Source: Bacteroidota bacterium
Lineage (GTDB): Bacteria; Bacteroidota; Bacteroidia; Bacteroidales; JADFUO01
Assembly (NCBI GenBank): GCA_030622635.1
Contig: JAUXFX010000010.1
Coordinates: 1 to 34,995, forward strand
DNA: 34,995 nucleotides
Reading direction: 5' to 3'
The position numbers and the translations under genes were made by a program. A model generated the notes under the pieces. That model was given only the letters and a program-made list of their open reading frames with translations, had not been told where the DNA came from and searched no databases. Below, one piece after another: positions 4,589-33,298 of this stretch (positions are counted from its first letter, which is position 1; each line of letters opens with the position of its first letter).

Positions 4589-4626
4589 GTGTCCGTCTAT
4601 AAAGTCCGAAAGTTTAAATAAATATT
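4589..4626 (+). repeat. 38-bp dispersed repeat, left copy (inward-facing inverted pair with 32330-32367)
   Basis: The copy begins GTGTCCGTCTATAAAGTCC and ends AAATAAATATT. It matches the reverse complement of 32330-32367 at 37 of 38 positions, and similarity stops abruptly at the GTGTCCG end. It looks like the terminus of a transposable element or a solo MITE end. No transposase lies beside it. Confidence 0.75.
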
Positions 4627-4664
4627 AAAAATCACAAATGAAAAGCACCAAATATCAAAACTTG

Positions 4665-22194: not shown

Positions 22195-24213
22195 TTAATT
22201 AATTTTTACAAATTTCTTAACCACTTTTGCACCGTCAGTAGTTTGGATTTGTAATGTATAGAATCCGTTCTGCAAATTATCCGTTTTCACAGGAATAATA
22301 TGTGAACCGGATGATTTGATTTCAGAAAGCTGATATACCATTTGTCCCATCTGATTAAATATGCTTAAATGAATTTCACTTGATTTAGTAAGTGAGATTT
22401 CAACATTCGCATTAGAAGTAATCGGGTTAGGATATACTTCGCTAACATCAGAAATATAACCGGAAACAGGTTCATCAATTGAAAGTGTAGCTTCGCCATC
22501 CTTAAGAATAATTTCAATGTTTGCAGAAGGATTTTCTTCGCTTATTGTTATTACAGCAGGAGTAGTTTCAATACCTAATAATTCTAAATATACAACATAA
22601 GTTCCGTATCCAAGGGTACTGAAATCAAAATTACCTTCATCATCAGTATTAATGTATGATAACGGTTCATAAGTTTCACTGAGTAATAATATTTCAATAT
22701 CCGAAACATTTCCCCTGCTTTGTTCATTAGTAACCGTACCATTAATCTCACCGGTACCGGCATTATATGATATAACTCCAATTAAATTGATGTCATACGG
22801 ATTTTGCGGATCACCCAATTGGATTACTGTTGCATCTTCCCAATATAAAACATCACCGTAATAAGTAGGCATATAATTATTAAAATATGCTGATTGCCAT
22901 GATAACATAGCTTGTATGTAGTAATCTCCGGGAGGTACATTATAAAAATTATACATACCTGCGGAATCAATTTCTGCAAAGTCAAAATAAGCATTGAATC
23001 CTAAGCTATCGCCGCTCATCAGCCATACGAATCCATAATCTGCAAGGTTGTTACCGGCAAAAATAGTTCCATATAAATTGGAGAAATTTGATGAATCACC
23101 AACAAGAATATTTTGCATTGATTCGAAAATACATCCTGTTGAATCTTCTGTAAATAAGGAAACAAAATAATAACCGGCATCACTGTATGTATGGGTAACA
23201 TTTTGTCCTGTTCCAGTGTTTCCGTCACCGAAATCCCATGTATAAGTGGTTGGATAAGCACTATATGTGTAACCGTTAAAACCAACGCTAAGGTTTTGAA
23301 CAGTATAGTCAAAGTAGCTTACGCAATCTCCTTGTTCAATTACCTGGATAACTTCACAGTAAGTGTCTGTACAATTATTTAAACTGTCGGTTATTGTCAG
23401 GCAAACTAAATACATTCCTTGTTGCGGAAAAGCATGTAACGGGTTTTGCTCGGTTGATGTTGTTCCATCACCGAAATCCCATAACCATGTATTTGGATTT
23501 CCATAAGAAATATCCTGAAATTGATAATTTAAAGGAATACTGTCAACGTTATAGTAATAATAATTTGCCTGGCAATTGTTATTATTGCCTATATATACAT
23601 CCTGACAGGAAGTATAGACACATGTATCATTGGTAATTGAATCTAAGGTAGTTGTTGTTAAACAAACTGTATAGAAGGCAACTCCTGCCTGCACAAATGT
23701 ATGTGTAACAAACTGACCGGTTCCGGAAGTTCCGTCACCGAAGTCCCATTCATAATTTGCTAATGGTTGGTTTGGGTTTAATAGAAATCCTTCAAAAACA
23801 AAAGTTAAAAAGTCATTTGTTGTATATACGAAGAAATTTTCACAACCGGAAGGTATTGAATCATTGCAAATACTGAAATCCGCGGTAATAGTCAGATTAT
23901 TCGGATTAAAATATCCAAAGTAATTGTGATAAAACATTACGCAATCATAAGTGCCAATTTCAACCATTCCCTGAGTAACACCTCCCAGCTGAATATTATC
24001 ATTATAATAACCGTTATTATCGGTTAAAACGGTATTGTAATAAGAAGAACCACCACCAAAAACCGAATCAATAGTAATATGAACTTCGTGATTTGGAATT
24101 CCATCTCCTGTTGCAATATCGGTAATATGCCCATTTACTAATAGTAAATCCTGGGCTGTTACAAACAGAATGCTTATAGCAAAAAAACAAAATGTAATTA
24201 GAAATTTTTTCAT
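22195..24213 (-). CDS. Secreted protein with carboxypeptidase-regulatory-like, three PKD and T9SS domains
   Basis: The 672-residue protein has a signal peptide (to about Ala20), an N-terminal carboxypeptidase-regulatory-like domain (VNGHITDIATGDGIPNHEVH) and three PKD domains, each with a WDFGDG core (about 128-208, 214-293, 297-373). A variable linker contains YMPTYYGDVLYWEDA. Next come a second regulatory-like domain (GEINGTVTNEQSRGN, YGTYVVYLELLG) and a type A sorting domain (VYPNPITSNANVEISL). The passenger is shared with the PKD proteins of the two sigma cassettes, but with three PKD copies. It has no own sigma or barrel gene, yet its promoter carries the same ECF motif (24299-24324). 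Role unknown. Confidence 0.88.
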   Translation of the reverse strand: MKKFLITFCFFAISILFVTAQDLLLVNGHITDIATGDGIPNHEVHITIDSVFGGGSSYYNTVLTDNNGYYNDNIQLGGVTQGMVEIGTYDCVMFYHNYFGYFNPNNLTITADFSICNDSIPSGCENFFVYTTNDFLTFVFEGFLLNPNQPLANYEWDFGDGTSGTGQFVTHTFVQAGVAFYTVCLTTTTLDSITNDTCVYTSCQDVYIGNNNNCQANYYYYNVDSIPLNYQFQDISYGNPNTWLWDFGDGTTSTEQNPLHAFPQQGMYLVCLTITDSLNNCTDTYCEVIQVIEQGDCVSYFDYTVQNLSVGFNGYTYSAYPTTYTWDFGDGNTGTGQNVTHTYSDAGYYFVSLFTEDSTGCIFESMQNILVGDSSNFSNLYGTIFAGNNLADYGFVWLMSGDSLGFNAYFDFAEIDSAGMYNFYNVPPGDYYIQAMLSWQSAYFNNYMPTYYGDVLYWEDATVIQLGDPQNPYDINLIGVISYNAGTGEINGTVTNEQSRGNVSDIEILLLSETYEPLSYINTDDEGNFDFSTLGYGTYVVYLELLGIETTPAVITISEENPSANIEIILKDGEATLSIDEPVSGYISDVSEVYPNPITSNANVEISLTKSSEIHLSIFNQMGQMVYQLSEIKSSGSHIIPVKTDNLQNGFYTLQIQTTDGAKVVKKFVKIN

Positions 24214-24298
24214 TGTTGTAAATTTTTAAAGGTTTAACATAAATTTAATAAATTTTTAATTGCAATTAATAAAAAAAGTGTATAGTATTTGTCAATAA

Positions 24299-24324
24299 GA
24301 CTGGAGGAAAATTAAAAGGTTGCC
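24299..24324 (-). promoter_or_regulatory. ECF-sigma-type promoter of the three-PKD gene
   Basis: On the minus strand GGCAACC (24324-24318) and GTC (24301-24299) are separated by 16 bases. The context CAGGCAACCTTTTAA is identical over 15 bases to the region upstream of the ECF sigma gene at 28529-28554, with equal spacing. An AAC-containing -35 and a GTC-type -10 are typical of ECF promoters. The predicted leader is about 80 bases. Confidence 0.6.
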
Positions 24325-24811: not shown

Positions 24812-26590
24812 CTAATTCTTAACAATTTTCTTTGTCACAGAAATGAAATTATCCGAATTAGATACGGATAATAAATAAATGCCTTTTTGTAAAGTCCGGA
24901 CAGGTATTTTTATAATGTGGTTTCCTTGCGATAAATTAAAATTTTCGGAATAAATGATCTGTCCTAATAGGTTGGATATGTTAAAAGATAAATTTTGTGA
25001 ATTTTTTAAATTAATTTCAATATTTAAATTGTTTGTTGCAGGATTTGGAAAAACATTACTGATTGTTATATCAGGTTCGTAAAAAATATCTTCTATACCT
25101 GTTATTTCATGGTCACATACTTCAAGGATTATATCATTTATAATTGGATGATCATCAGTAATAGTTACTGTAACAGGCAAGGTATATTTACCTGTAAATT
25201 CAGCATAAAGCTTGTATGTTCCGAAAGCAAGATAATCAAATTCAAAATATCCGTCATTTTCAGAAAAGTCAAAAGTCAGTGGATTGTTTTCATTATCAAG
25301 CAATAAAACTTCAACATCAGGTATCGGTTCACCAGGATTTATTTGACTATCATCACACCAGATAACGTTACCCCCAATTTTACCATTACCCTGATTAGTT
25401 CCGTTTGCCTGTAAAAGGTGAACATCCACAGCAAAGTAACTACTGTCGTATAATGACATTGTATTTGTGTTTTCCCACATCATACCATCAATAAAATAAG
25501 TAGGGATATATTCATTAAAACGGGCTGAGTTTGGCGTTAGTCCGATTTTTATCAGATAATCACCTTCCATTTTTTCGGTAAACCAAAAATATCCCAACGT
25601 ATAAAAAATATTAGTATCAATAGCAACAATATCGGTATTGTTAAAAACCCTGTATAAATAAGCTATTCCGGTATCGGCAGTACTAACGGGGTTATTGATA
25701 GGGTAATCGCCTGCAAAAGTAAATCCTCCGAGGTTGTAATAATTAGGTGTTATGATTTGTTTGCAAATAAAATCAGCATAACCACCGGCATTTTCACAGA
25801 TTATTGTCAGGCAAACTTCATAAGTGCCGCTTTCAGCATATTGATGAACAGGATTTTGTTCAAGTGAAATAGCACCATCGCCGAAATTCCATAACCATTC
25901 TGATATATTTCCAAGGGAATTATCATAAAAATAATAAAAATTTGGCATGTTTGAGGTGGAATCTACAAGGGCAATAAAATCAGCCTGACAAACAGGAGTA
26001 ATGGAAATATAAATTGAATCACAAAAAGTGTCGTAACAATAATTCATGGAATCGCTATTAGAAACTGTTAAGCAAACATAATAAATCCCGGTATCCTGAT
26101 AAGTATGAACAGGGTTTTGTTCACCTGAAGTGTTACCATCGCCGAAATCCCATTCCCATGTATCAATATTGCCAATTGAGAGATCAAAAAAATTATATGT
26201 AAAGGAGTTTAAGCTGTCGGGGTAATAATAAAAATAAGCCTGACAAAAAGATGGAAGTGTATCATTACAAATTATAAAATCAACAACAACAGGATAATCA
26301 AAATTGGTTACTGTAGTGTCGTGAACGATAAAATTGCAATCAAAAGTGAATATATAGAGATAGTTTATAGTAAAACCTGACATTGAAATTGAATCGGAAT
26401 AATATCCGTTTATATCGGTGGTTAATGTATCAAAAACATATTGTTCATTGGTAATTATATAAACTTTATGATTTGCTATTGGCTGGCTTGTTTCAATATC
26501 AGTAACATGTCCGCTTACAAAAATTATATCACCGGCATTTAATGATAAACAAAAAGCTAAAGCTGATATTAAAATTAGTAATTTTTTCAT
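24812..26590 (-). CDS. Secreted protein with two PKD domains and T9SS sorting domain (cassette 1)
   Basis: The 592-residue protein has a signal peptide (MKKLLILISALAFCLSLNA), a carboxypeptidase-regulatory-like domain (VSGHVTDIETSQPIANHKVY), then two PKD domains with WDFGDG (about 115-200) and WNFGDG (about 202-285). A linker with YIPTYFIDGMMWENT, a second regulatory-like domain (FDYLAFGTYKLYAEF) and a type A sorting domain (VFPNPATNNLNIEINL) follow. It is the last gene of the sigma / barrel / PKD operon, starting 4 bases after the barrel stop. Its layout repeats that of the other two PKD proteins, with a different PKD number. It is probably the exported effector or the signal sensed by the cassette. 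Confidence 0.88.
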   Translation of the reverse strand: MKKLLILISALAFCLSLNAGDIIFVSGHVTDIETSQPIANHKVYIITNEQYVFDTLTTDINGYYSDSISMSGFTINYLYIFTFDCNFIVHDTTVTNFDYPVVVDFIICNDTLPSFCQAYFYYYPDSLNSFTYNFFDLSIGNIDTWEWDFGDGNTSGEQNPVHTYQDTGIYYVCLTVSNSDSMNYCYDTFCDSIYISITPVCQADFIALVDSTSNMPNFYYFYDNSLGNISEWLWNFGDGAISLEQNPVHQYAESGTYEVCLTIICENAGGYADFICKQIITPNYYNLGGFTFAGDYPINNPVSTADTGIAYLYRVFNNTDIVAIDTNIFYTLGYFWFTEKMEGDYLIKIGLTPNSARFNEYIPTYFIDGMMWENTNTMSLYDSSYFAVDVHLLQANGTNQGNGKIGGNVIWCDDSQINPGEPIPDVEVLLLDNENNPLTFDFSENDGYFEFDYLAFGTYKLYAEFTGKYTLPVTVTITDDHPIINDIILEVCDHEITGIEDIFYEPDITISNVFPNPATNNLNIEINLKNSQNLSFNISNLLGQIIYSENFNLSQGNHIIKIPVRTLQKGIYLLSVSNSDNFISVTKKIVKN

Positions 26591-26594
26591 CCTT

Positions 26595-27929
26595 TTAAAA
26601 ATTAATTATTACCCCTGTTCTCAAACCAATTATATACGGTCGTTTTGCTTGCGGGTTAAATCTTTTATCATAAACCGAATTAATATAGTGCTTGTATGTC
26701 GGTTCAACAGATAAAATCAGTTTATTATTCAACCGGTAATTAAAACTAACTCCTGCAACAAATTGCCAGTTGGTATTGATTCGTGAAAATGTTTGATTTT
26801 CAATTGTAATTATTTTTGCTTCACTATCAGAAAAAATAACTGCCGGTTCGTTTTCATTTAATAAAATTGAAAAAATTGCACCGCCTTTTAAATAGCAGGA
26901 AATTTTTTTGAAATCCCAGATTTTGTAACTCAAAGTTAATGGTATTTGTAAATAAGTATATCGGTTAGTGGCTTGCGAAATTGCATAATGCTCAATAGAA
27001 TCATAAACATTTTCGGTTTTTGTAGTTAAGATTATTGAATCAGGGTTTACAGGATCAACTGTAAATGAGACCACATTTAAATAATATCCCACGCTGTCGT
27101 ATCTTTCGTAATTTATTTCATAGCCTCCGTTATCTCCGGATAATGAAACACCTATGCCACTTTGCAAAATGAATTTTGAAAAACGGTAGTTTGCACTTAT
27201 TTCAAATGCATAGTCATATTTATTTGGTTTTGATTGATAAAAAATAATACCTGGAGTAAAGTGAATCCCGAATGCAAGATTGGCTTTCTTTGCATAATCA
27301 TCTTTTAAACGAATATCAGGCAAAGGCTGAAATGAATTTCTTAAGCCGAAATTTAAATTATTTTTTGTTTTTGATTGATTATAGCTGACCGGATTTGATT
27401 TTAAGTTTAGCGGCTGAAGACCGGAAATTGCCGGGTTATTATTTTTTTGAACAATATTTTTTTGATTGTCAGATGGTTTTTCATTAAGGACTGAAACTAT
27501 TTTATTAGTTTCGTTTTGGGTTACAATATCGTTGTTCTCAGAAAGATTGTCGCTTTTATTGTCAACAAAAGTTGTTTCAACAGAAGGTTCCGGCTCAGGT
27601 GTTGTGATAGATGATTCTTTTTGGTTTAATACTAAATTTGGTTTTATTTCATTTTGTGTGTTGATTTGATTTATTTCAGAATTATGAGATATTTTGATAT
27701 TGCTGTTTGTTTTTGAGAAAGGATAGAAAAAATAAATAATAATCCCTGCTCCGATAATAGCAAGAGCAATAAATAAATTTTTCCCGTTAAATTTATTTTT
27801 TAAGTAGCCGGCATTAATTCCTTTCCAGACGTTTTTGGAAGGTTTTATTTTGTAATCTCCCAAAGCATTTCTGAAAAGCTTATCAATTTCTTGATTATTG
27901 CCGTTTATGTTATTTTTATCATTTTTCAT
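26595..27929 (-). CDS. Inner-membrane-anchored outer-membrane beta-barrel protein, putative anti-sigma/transducer (cassette 1)
   Basis: The 444-residue protein has a polar N-terminal segment with LFRNALGDYKIKPSKNVWKG (residues 18-37), one hydrophobic helix (about 51-70) and a Ser/Asn/Lys-rich, probably unstructured linker (71-220). It ends in a beta-barrel of about 220 residues (FTPGIIFYQ, ANYRFSKFILQSGIGVSL, YLQIPLTLSYKIW, YIIGLRTGVIINF). The final Phe is the usual outer-membrane insertion mark. It follows the ECF sigma gene by two bases, so the N-terminus could bind the sigma factor, with the barrel exposed outside. It is paralogous to 30241-31623. The function is inferred from context and topology. 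Confidence 0.8.
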   Translation of the reverse strand: MKNDKNNINGNNQEIDKLFRNALGDYKIKPSKNVWKGINAGYLKNKFNGKNLFIALAIIGAGIIIYFFYPFSKTNSNIKISHNSEINQINTQNEIKPNLVLNQKESSITTPEPEPSVETTFVDNKSDNLSENNDIVTQNETNKIVSVLNEKPSDNQKNIVQKNNNPAISGLQPLNLKSNPVSYNQSKTKNNLNFGLRNSFQPLPDIRLKDDYAKKANLAFGIHFTPGIIFYQSKPNKYDYAFEISANYRFSKFILQSGIGVSLSGDNGGYEINYERYDSVGYYLNVVSFTVDPVNPDSIILTTKTENVYDSIEHYAISQATNRYTYLQIPLTLSYKIWDFKKISCYLKGGAIFSILLNENEPAVIFSDSEAKIITIENQTFSRINTNWQFVAGVSFNYRLNNKLILSVEPTYKHYINSVYDKRFNPQAKRPYIIGLRTGVIINF

Positions 27930-27931
27930 GA

Positions 27932-28504
27932 TTATTTTGATATTATCATTTTTTGCTGTACATCAATGATTTTTTTCTTTAAATATTTTCTTGCTTTTGA
28001 CAACTGCGATTTTGATGTATTTTCTGAAATATTTAACAAATTCGCAATTTCTTTATGACTATATCCTTCAATACCATAAAGGTTAAAAACCATTCGGTAA
28101 CCGCAGGGTAAACTTTGGATTATTCTCATAAGTTGATTATTTGAAAGAATTTTGCCTGAATTGAATTTCTCTTCATTTTCATGTTCAGTAAAATTAATAA
28201 ATTCTTCAATATCATCTATATCGGAATGATTTGAATGCTTTAAATTACTTTGATAATTATTCAAAGCAGTATTGATCATTATTCTTCTTATCCATCCTTC
28301 AAAAGAGCCTTCCTTTCTGAAATTTTTAATATTGAAAAATACTTTAATAAATCCATCCTGCAAAACGTCTTCTGCTTCTTGCTTATTTTTACAATAACGC
28401 ATGCACACTCCAAGCATCTTTGATGCATATTTTCTATACAACAAATTATGAGCAAGGCGTTTACCTGCTATACATCCTTCAACTATTTTCTGTTCAGAAA
28501 TCAT
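27932..28504 (-). CDS. ECF RNA polymerase sigma factor (cassette 1)
   Basis: The protein (190 residues from 28504) has sigma region 2 (EAEDVLQDGFIKVFFNIKNF, GSFEGWIRRIMINTALN) and region 4 (LPCGYRMVFNLYGIEGYSHK, EIANLLNISENTSKSQLSKA), without region 1 or 3, as in ECF factors. I choose the ATG at 28504 because the predicted promoter (28529-28554) would make a GTG start at 28519 nearly leaderless, and because 28504 aligns with the paralogue's start. It is co-transcribed with the barrel and PKD genes. The promoter type suggests autoregulation. It is paralogous to the sigma factor at 31620-32156. Confidence 0.92.
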   Translation of the reverse strand: MISEQKIVEGCIAGKRLAHNLLYRKYASKMLGVCMRYCKNKQEAEDVLQDGFIKVFFNIKNFRKEGSFEGWIRRIMINTALNNYQSNLKHSNHSDIDDIEEFINFTEHENEEKFNSGKILSNNQLMRIIQSLPCGYRMVFNLYGIEGYSHKEIANLLNISENTSKSQLSKARKYLKKKIIDVQQKMIISK

Positions 28505-28528
28505 CAAATTACTATACACTGCCGGAAA

Positions 28529-28554
28529 GACAGATTTTTATTTAAAAGGTTGCC
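28529..28554 (-). promoter_or_regulatory. ECF-sigma-type promoter of cassette 1
   Basis: On the minus strand GGCAACC (28554-28548) and GTC (28531-28529) are 16 bases apart. It shares CAGGCAACCTTTTAA and the following GTCTT with the promoter of the stand-alone PKD gene (24299-24324). It lies just after the terminator of cassette 2, so cassette 1 is a separate transcription unit. Confidence 0.6.
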
Positions 28555-28562
28555 TGAAATCT

Positions 28563-28598
28563 AAAAAAGCATCCTTAAAAAAGTCAGGATGCTTTTTT
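28563..28598. terminator. Bidirectional intrinsic terminator between the two cassettes
   Basis: Perfect 12-bp arms (AAAAAAGCATCC and GGATGCTTTTTT) flank a 12-base loop, with T-tracts on both strands. On the minus strand it ends the cassette 2 operon about 20 bases after the stop at 28619. Confidence 0.85.
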
Positions 28599-28618
28599 TA
28601 ATTAACTAAAACTAAAAA

Positions 28619-30202
28619 TCAATCAACTTTAATCAATTTTCTTATAAAACTAACATTATCAATTGTTGATATTTGAATATTATAAAATCCTTTTGATAAA
28701 TGTTCAAGTTTGATCGGGATAATGTGTTTGCCCATGCTTTTTGATTCGCTTGACCTGTAAACTAACATGCCAAGTTGATTATAAACTGAAATTTGAATAA
28801 TTGAAGTCTTTTTAAAGTAAATTTTAATATTTACCAGGTCAGTTGCAGGGTTTGGATATACTTTGCCGATATTGTCAATATATTCAGAATAGTAATCATT
28901 AATTGAATACGAGATGCCATTGGCTTGTATAACGATATTGATATTCTCAACAATTGGATTGTCTTCATTAATTTCAACAGATATTGGTAAGGCATCAATT
29001 CCGGTTACTTCAGGGTAAATTTTATATATTCCGTATTCAAGTTCATTAAAGCTGAAATAACCATCTTCATCTGAATAAAGGTAAAAAAGGCAATTATCAA
29101 GTTCGTCAATTAAAATTATTTCAATATTGGAAGCAGGTTCGTCTTTATTGTCATATTCACCATAAGTAACTTTTCCGTTTATCACTCCTTCGCCGGTATT
29201 AACACTTACATTGAGTTGTACCAGATGTATATCATATTCCCAGTTATTACTGTTTAAAACAATAATGCCGGCATCTGCCCAAAATTGTTCATCCCCGTAA
29301 TAAGTTGGCAGAAATAATTCTGAATATGGAGAATTAGAATTAATACAAACTTTTGTGATATAATTTCCTTCAGGAACCTGATAGAAATAGTAAAATCCGA
29401 GAGTGTCAATAATTGCAGTATCAACAGGTATTATATTAGCACTATCAATTTTATACAGATATGCAGTTCCAAAATCAATAGGGAAGAGGTCCGCAAAGGC
29501 ATGCCCGCCGAAATTAAAGTAGCTGCGCATACCGATATTAAGTTTTTTAGTGATTGTTCCGGTACATCCTGTACCTGAAGGATTAATTGTGGAAATTGTA
29601 AGAGATATATAATAAACACTCATTTCTTTGAATTGATGAGATGGGTTTTGTTCTGTTGAACTTGTTCCGTCACCAAAATCCCAAAACCATGAAATTGTAT
29701 TTTCACCTGTATTATCAATAAAATGATATAAATAAGGTTTACTTGAAACAGAGTCGAAAATAAAATAAAAATCAGGTTCGCATCCTGATGAGATTATTGA
29801 TGAATAAAGCTCAAAATTTACATTAATATGATTATTCAAAAAGCTAATATCACCAACATTTATAACCGTGTCAAGTGTATTGTTGTAAACATCAATTGTG
29901 TATATAATTAAATTGGAATTCTCGGGGAATTCGTTAATCGTTGCAAAGTAAATTCCTTTTTCATTTGTCCGGACTTTTAAAAAGTAATTATCGTCAGGAT
30001 TGGACGAAGAATCGGAAGCAATATTTATTATTTGACCTTTAACGGGTTTCCCGCATAATTTATCAGTTACCTGTCCGGTAATATAAAATGTTTTAATCTG
30101 GCTTAGAACATCGGAACTTATAAAGACGGATAAAACAAAAATTAAAAACAATATTTTTATCTTACCGGATTTTATCTTTAAAAATAGTTTTTTGTAGTTC
30201 AT
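28619..30202 (-). CDS. Secreted protein with one PKD domain and T9SS sorting domain (cassette 2)
   Basis: The 527-residue protein has a signal peptide with a long basic start (hydrophobic core ILFLIFVLSVFISS), a carboxypeptidase-regulatory-like domain (ITGQVTDKLCGKPVKGQIIN) and one PKD domain (WFWDFGDGTSSTEQNPSHQF). The linker has FLPTYYGDEQFWADA; a second regulatory-like domain (GVINGKVTYGEYDN, LEYGIYKIYPEVTG) and a type A sorting domain (VYPNPATDLVNIKIYF) follow. It begins 38 bases after the barrel gene and ends at a strong terminator. It has the same plan as its two paralogues but fewer PKD copies. Confidence 0.88.
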   Translation of the reverse strand: MNYKKLFLKIKSGKIKILFLIFVLSVFISSDVLSQIKTFYITGQVTDKLCGKPVKGQIINIASDSSSNPDDNYFLKVRTNEKGIYFATINEFPENSNLIIYTIDVYNNTLDTVINVGDISFLNNHINVNFELYSSIISSGCEPDFYFIFDSVSSKPYLYHFIDNTGENTISWFWDFGDGTSSTEQNPSHQFKEMSVYYISLTISTINPSGTGCTGTITKKLNIGMRSYFNFGGHAFADLFPIDFGTAYLYKIDSANIIPVDTAIIDTLGFYYFYQVPEGNYITKVCINSNSPYSELFLPTYYGDEQFWADAGIIVLNSNNWEYDIHLVQLNVSVNTGEGVINGKVTYGEYDNKDEPASNIEIILIDELDNCLFYLYSDEDGYFSFNELEYGIYKIYPEVTGIDALPISVEINEDNPIVENINIVIQANGISYSINDYYSEYIDNIGKVYPNPATDLVNIKIYFKKTSIIQISVYNQLGMLVYRSSESKSMGKHIIPIKLEHLSKGFYNIQISTIDNVSFIRKLIKVD

Positions 30203-30240
30203 TGAATATGTGTTATTTGAAATTAAATTTATTTAATAAA

Positions 30241-31623
30241 TTAAAACTTATATACTACTCCTGTTCGTAATCCTACTGAGAACGGGTGTTTTGTAGTTAT
30301 GTATTTCTTTTCGTATGCTGATCTTATATAGTATCGCAAGCTCGGTTCCATTGAAATACTAAAGTTATCAGAAAGTCGGTATTTAAAGCCAAAATTGACT
30401 AAAAACTGCCAGTTTGTTTGTATTCTGATTGGCATTTTTTGATTTATTCTTATTATTTTTATGTATTCATCCTGTAAGTTAGCAGCAGGAATATTATCAA
30501 ATAATAAGACAGATAATGATGGTCCGCCTTTAACCGAGTATGTCATTTTGTTTTTACTGAAGTTATAGCCGAATAACAATGGGATTTGCAAATAAGTATA
30601 TTTATTTTTGGTTTGAGATATTGATATATGCTTAACCGAATCATAAACATCCACTGTTTTAGTATGATATATTGGAATTATTCCCTGTGGTGTTGTGTCG
30701 AATGTAACATTATAAACATCTTCGTAAGAACCCATATAATCATATCTTTCGTAATCAATAGTGTATTTTCCGTCATCGTTTGAAAAGGAAATTCCTAAAC
30801 CTATCTGGATAAAATAATAATTTGAAAAATGATATGAAACACTTACATCAAAATTATAACTTTGATTATTGGGAATCGAATCATCAGGATAAAAAATGAA
30901 TTCTGGTGTAATATAAGCACCAATTGAAAAATACGGATTGAATCTGTATTTGTTTTGATATTTTGTATTGTCAATATTTTCTTTCCGGATTTCAGTATCA
31001 GAATTTTCAATATTTTCTTCGGTTTTTATTAAAGCAGTAGTTTCTGAATTATCTGAAAGGTTTTCAATTTTTACTTCTCCAATTTCAATAGATGGAGTTA
31101 GATCATCAGAGTTGTTTTGAACTAATACATCTGTATTACTTTCCGGAATATTAGTCCGGTTCTTTTGGAGATCATCATTTGCTGTTGTTTTTTCAACCGG
31201 TATTTTATTATTTGATAAATTAGCATCAAAGGTTTCAAACTCAGTATTTTCAGAATAATTATTTTTAATTTTATTTTCTGTTTCAGCAAAAGTGTCTTCT
31301 GTTTTAATTTCTGTTATTTCAACATCCTGAATTTTATTATTTGTATCGAATAAAAATTTTGTTTGATCTGTTGTGGGGTTTAAAATTTTATCATCCGGTG
31401 ATGACTTAAAAGGATTAAAGATAAAGTAACCGGCAATGAATACAGCAATAATTGCAATTATTGAAATAACGATTTTTGTAAAATAATTGCTGAATATATT
31501 ATTTTTCGGATAAACGGGAATATTAGTCTTTACATTATCCCATATATGAACAGGCGGCACGGGTTTGAAATCCTCAAACTTTTGCTTAAATAAATTGTTT
31601 ATATTTTTATATTTTTCTTTCAA
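30241..31623 (-). CDS. Inner-membrane-anchored outer-membrane beta-barrel protein, putative anti-sigma/transducer (cassette 2), TTG start
   Basis: The 460-residue paralogue of the cassette 1 barrel has an N-terminal segment (LFKQKFEDFKPVPPVHIWDN, residues 11-30), a membrane helix (about 49-70), a Glu/Asn/Thr-rich linker (75-235) and a barrel (ISIGAYITPEFIFYP region aside, FIQIGLGISFSNDDGKYTI, YTYLQIPLLFGYNF, FSVGLRTGVVYKF). The start codon is TTG and overlaps the sigma stop as TTGA; no ATG or GTG lies in the N-terminal region, so TTG is the likely start and translation is coupled to the sigma gene. The sigma-proximal position suggests that the N-terminus controls the sigma factor. This is inference. 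Confidence 0.8.
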   Translation of the reverse strand: MKEKYKNINNLFKQKFEDFKPVPPVHIWDNVKTNIPVYPKNNIFSNYFTKIVISIIAIIAVFIAGYFIFNPFKSSPDDKILNPTTDQTKFLFDTNNKIQDVEITEIKTEDTFAETENKIKNNYSENTEFETFDANLSNNKIPVEKTTANDDLQKNRTNIPESNTDVLVQNNSDDLTPSIEIGEVKIENLSDNSETTALIKTEENIENSDTEIRKENIDNTKYQNKYRFNPYFSIGAYITPEFIFYPDDSIPNNQSYNFDVSVSYHFSNYYFIQIGLGISFSNDDGKYTIDYERYDYMGSYEDVYNVTFDTTPQGIIPIYHTKTVDVYDSVKHISISQTKNKYTYLQIPLLFGYNFSKNKMTYSVKGGPSLSVLLFDNIPAANLQDEYIKIIRINQKMPIRIQTNWQFLVNFGFKYRLSDNFSISMEPSLRYYIRSAYEKKYITTKHPFSVGLRTGVVYKF

Positions 31624-32156
31624 TTGCTCCTGATTTTCAATTTAATAATTTTCTTTTTTAAATTATGTTTTGCCCTTGATAATTGCGATTTTGAGGTATT
31701 CTCAGAAATATTCAGCATTTTACCGATTTCTTTATGAGTGTATCCCTCAATCACGTTTAAGTTAAAAACAATTCTGTAGCCGTCGGGCAGTTCATTTATT
31801 AGTTCTAAAAGTTCATCAACAGATAATTTACTAATTATGTCATCATCAGTTTTATCAGATATATTTACGTGTTCAATAGTAATGTTGTTTAAATCACGTA
31901 AATTTTTTTTATAATGATTAATAGCGGTATTTATTATTGTTCTTCTTATCCAGCCTTCAAAAGAACCTTCATTCCTGAAATATTTTAAATTAGTAAAAAT
32001 TTTTATAAAGCCATCCTGAAGAATATCCTCTGCTTCCATTCTGTTTTTTGCAAAACGAAGACAGATCCCATACATTTTGGGTGCAAAAAGCCTGTATAAT
32101 TTTTCCTGGGCTTTTGCATCATTGTTTAAACACTCTTTAATGAAATCCTTCTTCAA
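31620..32156 (-). CDS. ECF RNA polymerase sigma factor (cassette 2)
   Basis: The 178-residue protein shows region 2 (MEAEDILQDGFIKIFTNLKY, GSFEGWIRRTIINTAINHY) and region 4 (LPDGYRIVFNLNVIEGYTHK, EIGKMLNISENTSKSQLSRA). The similarity to the cassette 1 sigma is strong, with GSFEGWIRR and NISENTSKSQLS identical. The recognition helix is nearly the same, so both may read the same promoter. No GGCAACC-N16-GTC promoter is found upstream on its own strand, so its own control differs or is not visible. It is the first gene of the cassette 2 operon. Confidence 0.93.
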   Translation of the reverse strand: MKKDFIKECLNNDAKAQEKLYRLFAPKMYGICLRFAKNRMEAEDILQDGFIKIFTNLKYFRNEGSFEGWIRRTIINTAINHYKKNLRDLNNITIEHVNISDKTDDDIISKLSVDELLELINELPDGYRIVFNLNVIEGYTHKEIGKMLNISENTSKSQLSRAKHNLKKKIIKLKIRSN

Positions 32157-32413
32157 ATGTGTTGAATATTAATGGCAACCTAAAATGATAAGTAAGAAAA
32201 AATGTTAATCATTTTTAATGTATTACCTTTTGATTAATTCAATTTTTTAAACAAAAAGTAAAAGTACATAAAATTTTAAAAACCAAAATAATGCTTTTAT
32301 GTTTTTGATCTTTTAAAATGCTTGCGATTAATATTTATTTAAACTATCGGACTTTATAGACGGACACTTCACCTCATTTTACATTAAGACAGCCATACGT
32401 AAAAAATGGTTGC
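32157..32413. other. Spacer between sigma gene and zinc-ribbon gene
   Basis: This 257-base interval has no ORF. It contains the right copy of the 38-bp repeat (32330-32367) and must contain promoters for the sigma operon (minus) and the zinc-ribbon gene (plus), but I cannot locate them with confidence. Confidence 0.5.
32330..32367 (-). repeat. 38-bp dispersed repeat, right copy
   Basis: Read on the minus strand it begins GTGTCCGTCTATAAAGTCC and matches 4589-4626 at 37 of 38 positions. The two copies face each other across 27.7 kb. Similarity ends sharply at the outer GTGTCCG end, as expected for a transposon terminus. Confidence 0.75.
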
Positions 32414-32719: not shown

Positions 32720-33298
32720 ATGAAAATTGATGAAACTAAAGACATAATTTTAGATGTAGCAACTAATATATTCAGCAAATTTGGTTTTCATAAAACCACT
32801 GTTGATGAAATTGCCCGTGCCGCTCATAAAGCCAAAGGTTCTGTTTACTATCATTTTAAGAGCAAAGAAGAATTATTTCAAGGAGTTATAGATAAAGAAT
32901 TTCAAGTACTGAGAGGTGAACTGATAAAAGCTATAGATAGTGGAAATAATGCTAAAGAAAAACTGGCAAACTACATTACTGTCAGAATGAAAACATTAAA
33001 CAAATTAACTAATTTTTATGATGCATTAAAAAATGATTACTTGAATTACCTTAATTTTATTGGTGAAATCAGGGAAAGATATGATAATGAGGAAACAATT
33101 CTTATTAAATCTATTTTAACCGGCGGAGTGAATAATGACGAATTTGAGATAAATAATGTCGAAATAACAGCCCCTGCAATTTTGACAGCTTTAAAAGGAT
33201 TGGAAATGCCTTTCTTTATAGAAAATAAATATAATGAACTGGAAAGCAGGTTAAATGAATTGATTTCAATCCTTATCAGAGGAATCAAAAAACGTTAA
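32720..33298 (+). CDS. TetR/AcrR family transcriptional regulator
   Basis: The 192-residue protein has an N-terminal helix-turn-helix typical of TetR regulators (ILDVATNIFSKFGFHKTTVD, EIARAAHKAKGSVYYHFKSK, EELFQGVI). The C-terminal helical domain, which binds the ligand and forms the dimer, is not similar to a named subgroup. It is followed by a radical SAM gene and a short-chain dehydrogenase on the same strand; the whole group may be one regulated unit. A perfect palindrome overlaps its promoter, suggesting autoregulation. The ligand is unknown. Confidence 0.92.
   Translation: MKIDETKDIILDVATNIFSKFGFHKTTVDEIARAAHKAKGSVYYHFKSKEELFQGVIDKEFQVLRGELIKAIDSGNNAKEKLANYITVRMKTLNKLTNFYDALKNDYLNYLNFIGEIRERYDNEETILIKSILTGGVNNDEFEINNVEITAPAILTALKGLEMPFFIENKYNELESRLNELISILIRGIKKR

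Follow-up and report, generated by a model that had tools for sequence, protein, structure and literature searches.

Tandem Dma-type cassettes with predicted anti-sigma/outer-membrane barrel proteins and T9SS surface proteins in a Bacteroidota bacterium

The analysed window, a stretch of 34,995 nucleotides, carries two operons (A and B) in tandem, in each of which the gene order is ECF sigma factor, barrel protein, and T9SS surface protein. By sequence and architecture, the barrel proteins (Dma-A and Dma-B) and sigma factors (sigma A and sigma B) are members of the Dma/Das class. We consider it probable that both are Dma-type cassettes in which the N-terminus silences the sigma factor, an event at the outer membrane frees it, and the sigma factor then fires the operon and a T9SS set. 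The fusion of an anti-sigma domain to an outer-membrane barrel is not new, since it has been published for Phocaeicola (PMC9308784) and Bacteroides (PMC13088901). What appears to be new is the gene next to Dma, which in ten of 14 Dma-like loci codes for a T9SS-sorted, mostly PKD-bearing surface protein in place of the NigD or DUF4943 protein encoded in Bacteroides. A link between T9SS and Dma was not found in the literature searched, in which subscription papers were thinly covered and a prior mention is possible. Dma is a recently described class, for which the experiments in the literature consulted come from gut Bacteroides and Phocaeicola.

Locus layout, architecture, and class membership

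Seven genes lie on the minus strand from 32156 to 22195 in the order sigma A, Dma-A, surface protein 1, sigma B, Dma-B, and surface proteins 2 and 3 (Table 1; start codons are those of the ORF finder). Sigma-70 regions 2 and 4 were detected in both sigma factors by a Pfam domain scan. The initial annotation had placed two barrel proteins beside sigma genes, and each indeed directly follows an ECF sigma gene; the interval it gave, 26595-31623, also covers sigma B together with one T9SS surface protein but not sigma A, and it mentioned neither the T9SS surface proteins of the operons nor the shared promoter. The sigma A and Dma-A genes overlap by 4 bases and those of sigma B and Dma-B are 2 bases apart, which suggests that translation is coupled. 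Surface protein 1 of operon A and sigma B of operon B are separated by a hairpin followed by a run of T at about 28555-28600, which was recognized by eye; the terminator scan reported no hairpin at this position, where the loop seems larger than the limit of the scan.

Table 1. Features of the two cassettes and predicted promoter sites (positions in the window)
Feature	Position	Strand	Description and basis
Sigma A	31620..32156	-	ECF sigma factor, Das/ECF21-like clade, 178 aa, TTG start; Sigma70_r2/r4_2 matches, tree
Dma-A	30241..31623	-	460 aa; predicted N-terminal anti-sigma domain ~1-45, TM helix from 51, disordered tether ~73-228, barrel ~230-460
Dma-A N-terminal domain (predicted cytoplasmic)	31489..31623	-	LF.....D.K..P....W; HMM 1.7e-7
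Dma-A transmembrane helix	31417..31473	-	hydropathy; helix 43-68 in model
Dma-A outer-membrane beta-barrel domain (predicted)	30244..30936	-	Pfam, model, Foldseek
Surface protein 1 (operon A)	28619..30202	-	527 aa; PKD and carboxypeptidase-regulatory-like domains, T9SS sorting domain; gene order kept in relatives
Sigma B	27932..28519	-	ECF sigma factor, 195 aa from GTG; in-frame ATG at 28504
Dma-B	26595..27929	-	444 aa; architecture as Dma-A; TM from residue 52, barrel ~215-444
Surface protein 2 (operon B)	24812..26590	-	592 aa; PKD, CarboxypepD_reg, T9SS sorting domain
Surface protein 3	22195..24213	-	672 aa; three PKD, CarboxypepD_reg, T9SS sorting domain; own ECF-type promoter site
Predicted ECF promoter of sigma A	32386..32413	-	GCAACCATTT-N-GTCTT, about 230 bases before TTG; recurs in G003
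Predicted ECF promoter of sigma B	28527..28553	-	GCAACCTTTT-N-GTCTT; recurs in G001-G003
Predicted ECF promoter of surface protein 3	24297..24323	-	recurs in G002

Dma-A and Dma-B are 33% identical. In both, a soluble N-terminus of ~45 residues (net charge +5 in Dma-A and +7 in Dma-B) precedes a single, strong hydrophobic stretch that starts at residue 51 in Dma-A (mean hydropathy 2.9) and 52 in Dma-B (2.3), in agreement with the single helix proposed near residues 50-70. It is followed by a linker of ~153 and ~139 residues, respectively, rich in N, K, E, S, and T (74-76% disorder-promoting residues), close to the low-complexity linker of ~150 residues described earlier, and by a barrel that ends in Phe in each protein, again as described. 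The N-terminal pattern said to be shared by the two proteins is real, but its spacing had been given one residue short; it reads LF.....D.K..P....W in both. It is also above chance, because an HMM of 27 sigma-adjacent proteins from elsewhere in the class scores Dma-A (1.7e-7) and Dma-B (4.4e-8) above all 8,000 shuffled sequences.

The Pfam family OMP_b-brl_2 matches both proteins near its cut-off of 27 bits, just above it in Dma-A (residues 255-432, 27.7 bits) and just below it in Dma-B (residues 227-400, 24.3 bits). The structure of Dma-A was predicted as a single chain by AlphaFold2 from five sequences; the model contains two short helices, a long helix at 43-68, low-confidence coil at ~69-227, and strands between 231 and 459, with pLDDT mostly 60-84 in the barrel strands and low in the loops and the remainder. 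Foldseek matched this model to OmpA, Ail, OmpX, and NspA with target-normalized TM-scores of about 0.5-0.65, and an OmpA/Ail-like fold is suggested for the Dma barrel by a model that is weak outside parts of the barrel. A Dma profile matched nothing meaningful among the sequences of solved structures.

For class assignment, the Bacteroidales comparison set comprised 11 Dma-like proteins, including those of two loci of Bacteroides ihuae (G113), where the Dma-like genes adjoin NigD and DUF4943 genes, the reported neighbours of dma1 and dma2 in B. thetaiotaomicron (PMC13088901). A barrel profile of 17 order-level proteins aligned with this set at 99.2% in hhalign (E 1.7e-19), and the N-terminus alone at 95.8% (E 6.6e-9) versus 0.6% for the reversed control. 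In a tree of 40 sequences, the Bacteroidales Das-like sigmas form one group with sigma A and sigma B (support 100/98), outside which the 11 other ECF sigma factors of the genome fall; the ECF21-type call rests on this clade, with the Das-like sigmas as a stand-in for the official ECF21 model. The profile comparisons and the sigma tree are the reason for filing the two pairs as Dma/Das members: they combine an N-terminal domain homologous to that of Dma, a single TM helix and then a long disordered tether, a C-terminal beta-barrel homologous to Dma barrels, and, by gene order and sigma clade, an adjacent ECF21-type sigma gene. In Bacteroides, mutating dma de-represses the cognate sigma factor (PMC13088901). 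From this homology we infer that the N-terminus binds the sigma factor and that the chain spans both membranes, in support of the initial annotation, which had proposed that one chain lies in both membranes and that, in contrast to FecI/FecR/FecA, the anti-sigma factor and its outer-membrane domain may be fused. The novelty that it implied did not hold, as the dual membrane-spanning design was reported for Phocaeicola in 2022 (PMC9308784) and the name Dma was given in Bacteroides (PNAS 2024, as cited in PMC13088901 of 2026).

Several variants of this architecture were observed. A third Dma-like protein of this genome (L046:9500-10855, contig C224) is followed by a T9SS protein; its N-terminus seems to have two W motifs, and its sigma gene would lie beyond the contig end. 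The N-terminal anti-sigma-like domain appears to be tandem-duplicated in six loci of class relatives (L071, L077, L079, L082, L094, and L123). Other sigma-adjacent proteins (L070, L073, L075, L085, L092, and L094) have the N-terminal domain and helix in only 241-258 aa, which is too short for a tether and barrel, so that the N-terminal domain seems to be modular. In L102:382-2025, one 547-aa frame has an ECF-sigma-like start and a barrel-like end, reminiscent of the sigma-fused Dma3 (PMC13088901).

A recurring neighbour among T9SS-sorted proteins

When 41 genomes were searched with Dma-A, 14 distinct Dma-like loci were obtained, the three sister species aside: A and B of the window, the additional copy of this genome on C224, and eleven from other families. 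Ten of them, exactly the ten closest, are directly followed by a gene for a T9SS-sorted protein (A, B, C224, G016, three in G023, G008, G029 contig C226, and G036); these ten span six families, and the T9SS-sorted protein has PKD domains in all cases except C224. Such a neighbour was absent in the four most distant loci (L012 in G034, L013 in G017, L014 in G010, and L020 in G029; E 8e-7 to 6e-6), and in the Dma-like loci of B. ihuae NigD or DUF4943 genes take the place of the T9SS protein. About 150 T9SS sorting domains occur in this genome, roughly one gene in twenty; a single T9SS neighbour therefore means little and the argument rests on recurrence. At this frequency, chance is not a plausible source of such a neighbour in all ten loci, although these share a common descent. 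The genome also encodes the T9SS translocon SprA, and the downstream proteins, with their C-terminal sorting domains in a T9SS-bearing genome, correspond to T9SS type A cargo.

The same genomes were searched with a profile of four surface proteins of this genome. Nine of the 12 strongest loci outside the genus (E up to 1e-31) directly follow a sigma/anti-sigma pair, including L123, where the anti-sigma protein is without a barrel; of the other three, one is nearby at the same locus, one follows a sigma-less barrel gene (L121), and one stands alone (L120). The barrel protein of L121:4482-5690 has an N-terminal helix without an anti-sigma domain and adjoins a surface protein of the cassette kind, with no sigma gene nearby and a barrel similarity of 82%.

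Promoter-like sites and a predicted regulon

The heptamer GGCAACC is over-represented in the window (8 occurrences versus 1.85 expected), and sites of the form GCAACC(A/T)TTT-N-GTCTT precede sigma A, sigma B, and surface protein 3. The strict pattern CAACCNTTTN{10,14}GTCTT has five matches in the 3.13 Mb genome, versus one for the reversed pattern. Besides the three window sites, from which the pattern was drawn and which leave only two of the five matches independent, it was found just upstream of the genes for a C1 papain-like protease (L042:104-1744) and an M14 carboxypeptidase (L043:3685-6042), both of which are T9SS-sorted. In the sister species, these sites recur ahead of the C1 protease in G001 and of the M14 peptidase in G002, in addition to the recurrences given in Table 1. 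In G003 (L061, contig C170), the M14-peptidase site instead precedes the gene found downstream of the M14 peptidase here, as if the M14 peptidase gene had been lost or gained. Given the five strict sites and their recurrence before the same genes in sister species, a small, auto-regulated regulon of exported proteins is predicted.

Of 45 Das-like sigma genes, six have a looser pattern in the 300 bases upstream, versus 0.4 expected; four of the six sites are outside the genus, 37-53 bases from the start, and the other 39 genes are without this promoter form in the stretch scanned. The pattern GCAACCN{14,18}GTCTT added three matches, all antisense inside other genes, and was set aside, and a scan for sigma-70-type promoters was uninformative (80 found, 69 expected). 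Another GGCAACC, at 32174-32180 on the plus strand just before sigma A, faces a TetR-like gene at 32720.

The 230 bases between the sigma A site and the start codon contain a dispersed ~41-base repeat (32328-32368), which is also present at 4589-4628 and in dozens of copies in this genome and the sister species. It is possibly a small mobile element, whose insertion may have lengthened the sigma A leader; relatives carry different insertions at this position.

Possible signalling mechanism and comparison with known systems

In the proposed mechanism, the N-terminal domain of Dma would bind and silence the sigma factor encoded by the preceding gene; the helix would lie in the inner membrane and the C-terminal barrel in the outer one, joined across the periplasm by the disordered tether. 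The anti-sigma domain would be inactivated once the barrel end is perturbed, whether because the barrel fails to assemble, the outer membrane is damaged, or a ligand binds; as in other anti-sigma systems, a protease might cut the tether or the helix. Both the trigger and the proteolytic step are guesses, and a 'receptor' role of the barrel is unproven. The freed sigma factor would transcribe its own operon and a small T9SS-exported set, comprising the PKD surface proteins and the papain-like protease and M14 carboxypeptidase of this genome.

One rival reading, to which we would assign an even chance, is a plain outer-membrane stress sensor, whose barrel reports assembly or integrity and for which the T9SS proteins are no more than regulon members. 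By analogy, the homologous Phocaeicola pair, for which a toxin that damages the envelope gave 33-fold induction (PMC9308784), points to envelope stress as the trigger, but stress sensing by itself leaves unexplained why one kind of surface protein is kept in the operon across families. Alternatively, signalling might be coupled to cargo: the surface protein would bind to the Dma barrel or pass it, and the sigma factor would be freed by arrival of the surface protein, its loss, or its binding of a ligand. The recurrence of the cassette makes such a direct, though unproven, role attractive; it fits the six families, the surface-protein loci placed directly after or close to sigma/anti-sigma pairs, and L121, where barrel and surface protein are kept without a sigma factor. 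However, co-regulation alone accounts for the neighbourhood, both proteases lie away from any Dma gene, and Bacteroides Dma loci have other neighbours; we hold cargo coupling to be rather unlikely. In a further reading, improbable in our opinion, the Dma barrel of T9SS-bearing Bacteroidota is a checkpoint at which the exported neighbour docks and one chain signals to the sigma factor through both membranes; if true, the sigma factor would control further supply of the surface protein and secreted proteases. An ordinary outer-membrane protein whose long signal is cleaved and whose sigma neighbour is accidental would likewise have a single N-terminal hydrophobic stretch, but is highly improbable, because the conserved domain of ~45 residues before the helix occurs class-wide behind related sigma genes and, by eye, neither a signal-peptidase-like small-residue site nor a lipobox Cys follows the helix in Dma-A or Dma-B, where the sequence is F/Y/P/K-rich. 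A cleaved signal peptide, which had been named as one of the outcomes that would overturn the initial proposal, was rejected on the same grounds.

For the question of what the outer-membrane end of Dma senses, the recurring cassette and the five-site predicted regulon offer a concrete partner and concrete targets, in bacteria in which Dma is flanked by genes other than the NigD/DUF4943 genes seen in Bacteroides.

As in FecI/FecR/FecA cell-surface signalling, an outer-membrane signal would be passed to an ECF sigma factor, but that system consists of separate proteins whereas Dma is a single chain. A FecR-type system was rejected for this locus, where neither FecR nor TonB-dependent receptor domains were found in the seven proteins scanned against Pfam. 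PorXY-SigP of Porphyromonas gingivalis likewise ties an ECF sigma factor to T9SS; according to the available text of PMC7712824, a two-component system and SigP control T9SS machinery genes there, and that text describes no barrel-bearing anti-sigma factor. Closer is the pair M0N98_03761/03760 of Phocaeicola vulgatus (PMC9308784), in which the anti-sigma factor is predicted to span the periplasm and end in an outer-membrane barrel, with the sigma gene adjacent. That pair, which was likened to a B. fragilis pair responding to oxidative stress, is tied to LPS O-antigen length and NigD genes, and no T9SS partner was described for it. The same plan of anti-sigma N-terminus, TM helix, disordered tether, C-terminal barrel, and neighbouring ECF21-type sigma factor is found in Dma1/Das1 and Dma2/Das2 of B. 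thetaiotaomicron (PMC13088901). There, loss of dma2 raises expression of the dma2 operon, which is what autoregulation would predict for the sigma A and sigma B operons. Unlike the B. thetaiotaomicron Dma genes with their NigD/DUF4943 neighbours, those described here stand in two tandem cassettes with T9SS-sorted PKD surface proteins, and their predicted regulon comprises exported proteases and surface proteins, whereas that of B. thetaiotaomicron comprises vesicle and glycan-use genes (PMC13088901).
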